Source: Pseudomonas synxantha (GTDB taxonomy: Bacteria; Pseudomonadota; Gammaproteobacteria; Pseudomonadales; Pseudomonadaceae). Taken from it: a DNA stretch of 64,000 nucleotides. The notes under the pieces were generated by a model. It saw nothing but the letters and a program-made list of their open reading frames with translations, ran no database searches and was not told where the DNA came from. The stretch covers positions 6,634,001 to 6,698,000 of the forward strand of contig NZ_LT629786.1 in assembly GCF_900105675.1 (NCBI RefSeq), in the 5' to 3' direction. Positions 31,732 to 33,301 of this stretch are shown here, piece after piece (the stretch's first letter is position 1; every line of letters starts with the position of its first letter). The position numbers and the translations under genes are program-made.

Positions 31732-31754
31732 TCTCAAGTGCCACACAGATCCAA

Positions 31755-31843
31755 TGTGGGAGGGGGCTTGCTCCCGATTGCGGTACGTCAGTCAGTACAT
31801 ATTTGGCTGATACACCGCTATCGGGGGCAAGCCCCCTCCCACA
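31755..31843. repeat. REPIN between the parA-like gene and the structured leader
   Basis: A pair of inverted REP sequences (GTGGGAGGGGGCTTGC arms with CTCCCGATTGCGGT and CCGCTATCGGGGGC next to the core) is separated by about 30 bases. It is 89 bp long, of the same subfamily as the copies at 8989, 32444, 40155 and 44602. Confidence 0.9.
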
Positions 31844-31877
31844 TTTGGATGGTATTCCAATGAATCGTCCCACAGAG

Positions 31878-31930: not shown

Positions 31931-31981
31931 TACGCCAGAATCGGCCGGCTTGTGCGTCTGGATAGGCGTCTCTAAGGTTTG

Positions 31982-32203
31982 CCGGTCGCTGAATGTTCAG
32001 TGATCGGGTTTAGTAGCCCAACCGACCAAAGCATTTGTACCGCTCCAAAAGCATGGCGTTTATCGCCTATCTGATGGTGGCTGTATGCAGGGCACCTTCG
32101 GGTGCGCCGGTCTTTGCTTTGTTCCCCGGTCTACTAACCTGCGTACAGCTGCCACCCTTCGTTTAGTAGCGAAACGGTAGTGGCCCTATCAGGGAACAAA
32201 TGC
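31982..32203 (+). promoter_or_regulatory. Highly structured leader RNA of DUF6124-like gene
   Basis: This gap is not empty. Read as + strand RNA it has: an outer stem GGTCG/CGACC (31984-31988, 32023-32027) holding two hairpins, CTGA-ATGT-TCAG and GGG-TTTAGTAG-CCC (32006-32019); a GGCG/CGCC hairpin (32055-32067); a long stem GGTGGCTGTATGCAGG (32076-32091) with CCTGCGTACAGCTGCCACC (32138-32156), enclosing a UUCG hairpin; and TTCG-TTTAGTAG-CGAA (32158-32173). CTACTAA (32131-32137) is complementary to both TTTAGTAG loops. A small CCCT-ATC-AGGG hairpin covers the probable ribosome-binding site. No known RNA family was recognised; C4-type phage antisense RNA is a possible analogue. Confidence 0.6.
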
Positions 32204-32488
32204 ATGTCTATCAGTCTTTTCAATGTGTCGCCCAACCTGCCCACCGAAGCTCTAGTTCTCAACAGTTACGAAACCTTCTCCTCCGTGCGCACGCTATTAC
32301 TCAACTTGTCCAACGACCTCACTGGCGAACATCGCGATGTGGCGCTGGCGATTCACCAGTTAAGTGAATTGGGCGTCATGCTGGTCGCCCAGATGATGGA
32401 CCGCGAAGCCCCACTACCCCCAAAGCTGAAACACGGTCAAAAATGTGGGAGGGGGCTTGCTCCCGATGGCGGTGTATCAGTCACCTGA
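32204..32488 (+). CDS. DUF6124-like small protein with REPIN-coded C-terminus
   Basis: A 94-residue protein from the ATG at 32204. The core (MSISLFNVSPNLPTEALVLN to LGVMLVAQMMD) resembles the conserved C-terminal half of DUF6124-type proteins, a small helical family common in Pseudomonas and of unknown function. The last ~15 residues ([15 protein letters not shown]) and the stop codon come from the inserted REPIN at 32444-32533, so the native end has been replaced. AGGG at 32191-32194 is the likely ribosome-binding site and sits in a small hairpin. It follows the structured leader directly. Confidence 0.65.
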   Translation: MSISLFNVSPNLPTEALVLNSYETFSSVRTLLLNLSNDLTGEHRDVALAIHQLSELGVMLVAQMMDREAPLPPKLKHGQKCGRGLAPDGGVSVT

Positions 32489-32533
32489 TAAGTTGACTGG
32501 CCCACTGCTATCGGGAGCAAGCCCCCTCCCACA
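32444..32533. repeat. REPIN at the 3' end of the DUF6124-like gene
   Basis: A 90-bp inverted REP pair of the common subfamily, with GTGGGAGGGGGCTTGC at one end and its complement at the other. Its first 45 bases read on into the DUF6124-like coding frame and supply its stop codon. It also lies between convergent transcripts (that gene and trxC) and may act as their terminator. Confidence 0.88.
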
Positions 32534-32559
32534 CTGTCCTGCGGTGTTCTGAAGGGGGG

Positions 32560-33076: not shown

Positions 33077-33301
33077 ATGAACGACGCTTTGAAACTGGCC
33101 ATTGAACATTGGCCTTACGTTGCAACGCTGCTGCGCAAACCCCAAACCGAGGATGATTATGACGCCCTGGTCGAGGCGATTGATGAGCTGCTCGATATCA
33201 TAGGAGAAGATGAAGACCATCCAATGGGTGGGCTACTGGACATCATTTCTGACTGGGTGGAGGCCTATGATCTGGAGCATCAGCGTATGCCTCAGATCTG
33301 A
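33077..33301 (+). pseudogene. HigA-type antitoxin N-terminal fragment without its HTH domain
   Basis: A 74-residue protein that matches the N-terminal half of HigA-like antitoxins of Pseudomonas (HWPYVATLL, then DYDALVEAIDELLDIIGEDE and WVEAYDLEHQRMP). It stops where the linker to the Cro/C1 DNA-binding domain normally starts. The following bases do not encode an HTH in any frame that I can see, and no HigB toxin gene is adjacent. AAAGGA before the ATG means it could still be translated. It may be a decayed remnant or a small stand-alone protein. Confidence 0.65.

Follow-up and report, generated by a model that had tools for sequence, protein, structure and literature searches.

A chromosomal C4 antisense RNA module precedes a DUF6124 gene and is one of many in Pseudomonas

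Introduction

In the sequence record of phage P1 (AF234172), the elements a1, b1, C4, a2, b2, and icd are annotated in that order, with a2 and b2 noted as binding sites that repress icd/ant translation and a1 and b1 given as putative. The passages of PMC5320573 that deal with this RNA describe P1 C4 as being cut from a longer transcript by RNase P, and they credit Weinberg et al. (2010) with predicting C4 RNAs in groups that include the Pseudomonadales. The same passages describe 21 Group 1 C4-like small RNAs on the chromosome of Acinetobacter baumannii AB5075, six of them truncated. Expression and apparent processing of the Group 1 RNAs were seen there, and their targets were left open as either incoming phage or bacterial transcripts (PMC5320573, same passages).

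Here, we describe a locus near the middle of a 64-kb stretch of a Pseudomonas chromosome (the window). An initial annotation had reported a structured leader RNA with two identical hairpin loops and a strand able to pair with either, in front of a DUF6124-like gene. The RNA is of a kind already known: it is a C4 RNA. Our literature search, which covered open-licence texts, turned up no publication on DUF6124, none on C4 RNA in Pseudomonas fluorescens, and none on the coupling of C4 to DUF6124/DUF3077, its scale in Pseudomonas, or the matched sets of loops.

Results

The window carries a C4 antisense RNA flanked by complementary sites

The region from 31972 to 32206 comprises an upstream two-hairpin element, a compact RNA of three stems, a hairpin downstream of it, and the DUF6124 start codon. 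The parts of the locus are as follows.

31972..32024, + strand: a1/b1-type upstream target element (c4-a1b1 region), from cmscan with RF03163; kept in the alignment of the window and 28 relatives
32009..32016, + strand: a1 site, hairpin loop TTTAGTAG, complementary to a'
32027..32033, + strand: b1 site, CAAAGCA, 7-nt exact complement of b'
32070..32159, + strand: C4 antisense RNA (long stem, UUCG hairpin, b' hairpin), from cmscan with RF01695
32111..32125, + strand: b' recognition loop of C4, from alignment to the RF01695 structure; complement of b2
32131..32137, + strand: a' recognition strand of C4, CTACTAA, an unpaired junction in the RF01695 structure
32158..32173, + strand: a2 hairpin TTCG-TTTAGTAG-CGAA, downstream target of a', from complementarity and alignment
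32184..32194, + strand: CCCT-ATC-AGGG hairpin overlapping the probable Shine-Dalgarno sequence, from the sequence
32193..32200, + strand: b2 site GGAACAAA, at the end of the probable Shine-Dalgarno sequence, complementary to b'
32204..32488, + strand: DUF6124 gene, 94 codons, ATG at 32204, with a PF19619 match of 84.5 bits

In a cmscan of the window, RF01695 matched the three-stem RNA with 74.6 bits against a gathering score of 45 (E = 1e-12), and model positions 1 to 87 of 87 were aligned. The initial annotation had named C4 as the closest design and proposed an Infernal search of Rfam that included it; the guess was right, and the family, which the annotation had not recognized, is C4 antisense RNA. 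The upstream element gave 35.8 bits with RF03163 (E = 3.2e-7 over 841 nt), below the cut-off of 46.7, and is called here an a1/b1-type element rather than assigned to RF03163. It resembles c4-a1b1 elements in its place and in having a loop complementary to a'.

Both copies of TTTAGTAG lie in hairpin loops as first described, closed by GGG/CCC at 32006-32019 and by TTCG/CGAA at 32158-32173, and all seven bases of CTACTAA are complementary to each loop. The 8-mer occurs exactly twice in the 64-kb window, compared with 0.24 expected, and two copies were reached in 2 of 100 shuffles. A second recognition element, the b' loop, was absent from the initial annotation. It complements 8 nt at b2, which occupies positions -11 to -4 before the DUF6124 start codon and so places b' opposite the translation start, and 7 nt at b1. 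Each side of the C4 RNA therefore holds one site for a' and one for b'. The 222-nt region is indeed strongly structured: it folds at -93.9 kcal/mol (z = -5.6), a stability equaled by 0 of 200 shuffles. The gene behind it likewise proved to be DUF6124-like. No consensus sigma-70 promoter upstream of the locus passed our scan, no terminator was found on the module's strand, and no T-run lies between a1 and C4.

The locus resembles P1/P7 immI in having a C4 RNA above the cut-off (68.8 bits in P1, where c4-a1b1 gave 51 bits) and in the order a1, b1, C4, a2, b2, small ORF, with b2 just before the start codon. It differs in its target gene, which is DUF6124 and not the phage icd/ant, and it is hence not a member of the immI type, in which C4 is followed by icd and ant. 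It differs further in being chromosomal and stable beside a ParA-like gene and trxC, in the many C4 copies per genome, and in lacking a terminator between b1 and C4. Gifsy-1 IsrK/STnc1160 and P4 CI RNA, as treated in the relevant passages of PMC4825925, offer a parallel, a processed RNA within a leader, and P4 also has complementary sites both upstream and downstream. What these RNAs affect in those passages, by demonstration or by suggestion, is transcription termination, however, and the window, with no terminator between its upstream sites and the antisense RNA, falls outside this type.

The locus has persisted while its b' loop changed

A scan of named genomes returned 32 relatives of the window's DUF6124 gene. 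Of these, 31 have the same ParA-like neighbor at a distance of at most 1.5 kb (L164 is located elsewhere), and trxC is also present in 30 of the 31 syntenic relatives, the remaining one (L148) being cut by a contig end. In the window, a 74-codon frame at 33077-33301 adjoining trxC had no Pfam or NCBIfam match. The DUF6124 protein is conserved, with a median dN/dS of 0.08 across 403 pairs from 29 sequences (the window and 30 of the 32 relatives, without L164 and L167, less two of these 31 dropped for internal stops; 3 of 406 pairs were removed by a divergence filter). Counted from the position aligned to the first residue of the window protein, 28 of 30 relatives have 72 to 75 codons and two are shorter, at 45 and 29 codons. 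The 94-codon gene of the window has an extra C-terminus, which runs into a REP-like repeat. Such REP-like inverted repeats flank the module at 31751-31847 and 32443-32534, where they were seen as sub-threshold matches to microRNA models.

The fold is conserved as well. Aligning the window with 28 of the 32 named relatives showed all 261 cells of the upstream stem to be paired. For the three C4 stems the paired cells numbered 479 of 493, 145 of 145, and 145 of 145, and for the a2 stem 96 of 111. The CCCT-ATC-AGGG hairpin, which the initial annotation had described as masking the probable ribosome-binding site, is present in the window but was paired in only 87 of 116 cells, and its conservation is hence partial.

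The two recognition elements have behaved differently. TTAGTAG, the a' target, occurs both upstream and downstream of C4 in all 33 parsed loci (the 32 relatives and the window), while b' exists in 13 versions among the same loci, some of them near-identical, and varies together with b2. Taking one representative per version, the longest exact complement of b' in its own downstream region averaged 7.38 nt, compared with 4.71 nt in those of the others (0 of 50,000 permutations); upstream, the values were 6.15 and 5.01 nt (9 of 50,000). The match to b2 reached at least 6 nt in 11 of the 13 versions and only 5 nt in the other two, and that to b1 reached at least 6 nt in 8 of 13. Together with the synteny and the conserved protein, these data imply that a lasting chromosomal gene has retained a C4 RNA whose second loop changed repeatedly, its target changing along with it. 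Loss of loop or complement, or a failure of the two to covary in homologues, which the initial annotation had listed as evidence against its reading, was looked for and not seen.

Antisense loops mostly match the targets of their own locus best

At least 28 C4 matches lie on the single 6.84-Mb contig of the window's genome, and each exceeds the cut-off; this count is a lower bound, as 150 of 1,921 candidates were scored. Among these 28 loci (the window's is L017), the longest exact complement of a' averaged 6.50 nt in the cognate upstream region compared with 4.40 nt in noncognate ones, and 6.50 compared with 3.99 nt downstream. For b', the corresponding values were 6.79 and 4.90 nt upstream and 7.39 and 4.72 nt downstream. 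For each of the four site types the cognate advantage was reached by 0 of 100,000 permutations, a test that, like the other permutation tests here, ignores the shared ancestry of paralogues. In 22 of 26 loci the b2 match spanned 6 nt or more, and every one of these 22 overlapped positions -14 to -5 relative to the start codon; b1 was the weakest site, with 6 nt or more in 23 of the 28 loci and in 18 of 30 loci from other Pseudomonas genomes.

Only 16 different a' strands occur among the 28 loci, and a' alone therefore seldom picks out a single target: its best match was unique in only 7 or 8 of 28 cases, the strand being common to paralogues. Pairing at a' is nonetheless kept across several sequences, four of its seven positions using three or four Watson-Crick pair types and the other three using two, when a' is placed at its best-scoring position on each target, a choice that favors pairing. 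When a' and b' were scored together for the 26 loci with targets, the mean duplex energy was -22.05 kcal/mol for the locus's own target and -11.18 kcal/mol for others. By this measure 24 of 26 C4 RNAs uniquely preferred their own target, and 23 of 26 targets uniquely preferred their own C4 RNA, while 3 did not. The two exceptions among the RNAs were L018, which scored better on the L004 target, and L020, which scored better on the targets of L009 and L024. Because the a'/b' combinations differ to this extent, each C4 RNA should mostly control its own neighbor.

Cognate preference extended to 30 loci from other Pseudomonas genomes (L051 to L080, the top-scoring C4 match per genome and not a random sample) and to 26 loci from other genera (L082 and L102, both Pseudomonas, having been set aside), being reached by 0 of 20,000 permutations in each of eight tests. 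Sites of at least 6 nt were found for a2 in 30 of 30 and 21 of 26 of these loci, respectively, and for b2 in 28 of 30 and 22 of 26.

C4 RNAs and DUF6124/DUF3077 genes are coupled within the genome

The window's genome gave 22 DUF6124 matches, 19 above the Pfam cut-off. Nineteen of the 22 domains begin 57 to 194 nt behind a C4 RNA on the same strand, and the other three genes had no C4 match. Viewed from the RNA, 22 of the 28 C4 loci precede a DUF6124 or DUF3077 gene (L020 was left out of this Pfam scan of the frames behind C4), the DUF3077 proteins being those of L002, L005, and L028. L010 and L014 are followed by proteins with no Pfam match and L023 by a 38-codon frame. An a2 site lies just downstream of C4 in 26 of the 28 loci; L012 and L016 have a C4 RNA above the cut-off and no a2 target, and may be orphan or decaying copies. 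The set resembles that of A. baumannii AB5075 in comprising many chromosomal C4-type RNAs (at least 28 here and 21 there) with diversified recognition loops. It differs from the AB5075 set, as the passages of PMC5320573 present it, in this regular placement of a2 and of DUF6124/DUF3077 genes behind the RNA.

Several loci depart from the common pattern. L049 and L030 are DUF6124 genes with an a1/b1-type element and no C4 match, and no trans partner stood out for them among the other C4 RNAs; L040 is a DUF6124 gene that has no C4 RNA and is divergent from an apparent helix-turn-helix repressor gene. At L002 and L005 (4.92 Mb and 4.17 Mb), an apparent short leader ORF behind a2/b2 overlaps the DUF3077 start by ATGA, which by eye recalls the icd/ant overlap of P1.

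No C4 match was found in 14 control genomes. The c4-a1b1 model (RF03163) was less discriminating: it gave 29 matches in the window's genome, 8 of them above the cut-off, and weak matches in 6 of the 14 controls as well. Around 18 of the genome's C4 loci, 15 of 20 neighboring frames scanned (out of 55 listed) had a Pfam family, and some of the five unmatched ones may not be genes. The families include transporters, enzymes, and a flagellar export protein, and no phage structural family was found among the 20. Neighboring frames carry PAAR and S-type pyocin domains at L003 and L009 and a reverse transcriptase domain at L013.

Counts of C4 and of the two gene families rise together across the genus

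C4 RNAs were present in 110 of 119 genomes of the same genus, DUF6124 in 95, and DUF3077 in 93. The median was 14 C4 RNAs per genome, and 17 genomes had at least 33. The C4 count correlated with the summed DUF6124 and DUF3077 count (rho = 0.935), with DUF6124 (rho = 0.866), and with DUF3077 (rho = 0.674), in correlations that ignore kinship and use lower-bound counts (the best 33 C4 and best 47 DUF6124 candidates per genome). All nine genomes with no C4 match also had no DUF6124 or DUF3077, and 15 of the 119 had one to five C4 RNAs and no DUF6124.

Across the order, with the best 28 candidates per genome scored, 22 of 145 genomes held C4; two belong to the same genus, and the other 20 have one to six copies each. 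DUF6124 was found in 2 of the 145, both of the same genus. Across the class, 28 of 370 genomes had C4, with at most 10 copies outside Pseudomonas among the best 11 candidates scored per genome.

For the 30 other Pseudomonas loci, we also read the first frame behind C4 that opens with ATG and spans at least 40 codons. By this reading 8 were DUF6124/DUF3077-like, 7 antirepressor-like, and 3 of the L010/L014 type, and 12 were short frames of 41 to 57 codons. By eye, six DUF3077 matches lie about 500 nt behind a same-strand C4 RNA (G034, two in G048, G052, G071, and G095), which indicates that short frames can precede a DUF3077 gene; at least where these loci were fetched, a short frame lies between the two. 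In the window's genome, then, C4 RNAs usually have DUF6124 or DUF3077 as their cargo, which does not extend to every C4 locus.

Discussion

We conclude that the feature in the window is very probably a chromosomally domesticated C4 module, whose processed C4 RNA would block translation of DUF6124. The computed evidence consists of family membership, complementarity, co-variation, cognate preference, and the conservation of locus and protein; from it we infer transcription, processing, repression, and a decoy role. The a1/b1 element, the C4 RNA, the a2/b2 sites, and the DUF6124 gene would follow one another on a single transcript. By analogy with RNase P processing in P1, the C4 RNA would be cut out of this transcript. 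Its a' strand could then pair with the a2 hairpin loop and its b' loop with the stretch from the end of the Shine-Dalgarno sequence to just before the start codon, and this pairing would leave the ribosome unable to start on the DUF6124 frame. The a1/b1 element would bind the same C4 RNA and may serve as a built-in decoy or feedback site. Counting against this account are the lack of a consensus promoter in our upstream scan, the sub-threshold c4-a1b1 score, the a' strands common to paralogues, the better fit of L018 and L020 to foreign targets, the two C4 RNAs that have no a2 target, the three DUF6124 genes with no C4 match, and the weakness of b1.

The initial annotation proposed instead that two loops compete for one strand and form a switch. 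Such a cis-acting device, in which the uncut leader refolds and CTACTAA pairs with either loop to open or close the ribosome-binding site with no trans-acting C4 RNA, would fit the close spacing of all partners on one strand, the great stability of the leader, and the overlap of the CCCT/AGGG hairpin with the probable Shine-Dalgarno sequence. We nevertheless consider it unlikely. The C4 core has been conserved as a unit of its own, and the P1 family member is annotated as a separate RNA (misc_RNA); the Shine-Dalgarno hairpin is conserved only in part, as the 87 paired cells of 116 indicate; and b'-b2 complementarity is kept, although a switch based on CTACTAA alone would have no need of it. 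The pairing of loops and complement stands, while the parts to which it belongs correspond to the P1 antisense repressor, so that the switch captured half of the design and overlooked b'. That the locus is a remnant of a prophage immunity region, surviving by chance with no present role, would suit the nature of C4 as a phage regulator, and some other C4 loci, by reading of their translations, precede BRO-N/KilA-like frames of the antirepressor type. Viral families akin to the cargo also exist: the L005 DUF3077 protein matches phrog_36471 (E = 6.7e-12) and phrog_6327, and the L025 DUF6124 protein weakly matches phrog_6327 (E = 7.7e-4). Against this, the window protein has no PHROG match, L025 as a query found one match among 50,697 phage records and none among 72,556 plasmids, and no phage structural family appeared among the 20 neighboring frames. 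With the same ParA-like neighbor in 31 of 32 relatives, a dN/dS of 0.08, and loops that still match while they change, a functionless remnant is highly improbable.

Two further readings bear on how the module might act and on what it controls. Pairing of C4 with b1 could release a terminator that precedes C4, as happens with P4 CI and has been suggested for IsrK; negative feedback on transcription by IsrK/STnc1160, compared with P4 CI RNA, has already been proposed in the relevant passages of PMC4825925. Of 83 loci having a1, 55 show a T-run between it and C4, and in a model of 40 C4 loci with a terminator-like hairpin in this interval, 7 from the window's genome, blocking b1 raised the predicted terminator probability from 0.53 to 0.93, with 29 loci rising by more than 0.05 and none falling by that much; P1 itself went from 0.33 to 0.83. 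In the same 40 loci the modeled probability was 0.67 when other upstream stretches were blocked and 0.79 when the terminator's own loop was blocked. Because blocking that loop also raises the probability, the rise is partly unspecific, and the modeled response suggests negative transcription feedback at those 40 loci. A three-arm, terminator/antiterminator-like design with its first arm at b1 was seen at L002, L005, L015, L051 to L054, and others. The window locus has neither a T-run between a1 and C4 nor a terminator on this strand, and for it we give attenuation next to no credence; we do not claim it there, and it may hold elsewhere. A type I toxin-antitoxin arrangement would make DUF6124 a growth inhibitor that the antisense RNA keeps in check, as might be true of Icd in P1; this is a proposal about the cargo and does not conflict with a domesticated C4 module. 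It would be in keeping with a small ORF under antisense control in many copies and with the position that DUF6124 shares with P1 Icd, an annotated inhibitor of cell division. DUF6124, however, has no profile similarity to Icd, and the paralogue L025 (79 amino acids) is predicted to form a two-helix hairpin (mean pLDDT, 85.8) for which a fold search gave no significant and hence no informative match. We regard a toxin role as doubtful.

The pairing of C4 with DUF6124/DUF3077 ties an RNA family to protein families with no assigned function and predicts how these are controlled. It also presents 26 natural antisense-target pairs in one cell, their specificity predicted in silico, as a set that could be used to study how recognition loops evolve without cross-talk. 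We speculate, as an idea more likely wrong than right by a wide margin, that Pseudomonas has built from a phage immunity RNA a repertoire of dozens of insulated keys per genome that serves phage defense or competition. If so, each antisense key would keep one DUF6124/DUF3077 protein silent, keys and locks would be recut together while the protein stayed unchanged, and incoming phage RNA with C4-like sites would titrate one key and free its protein.
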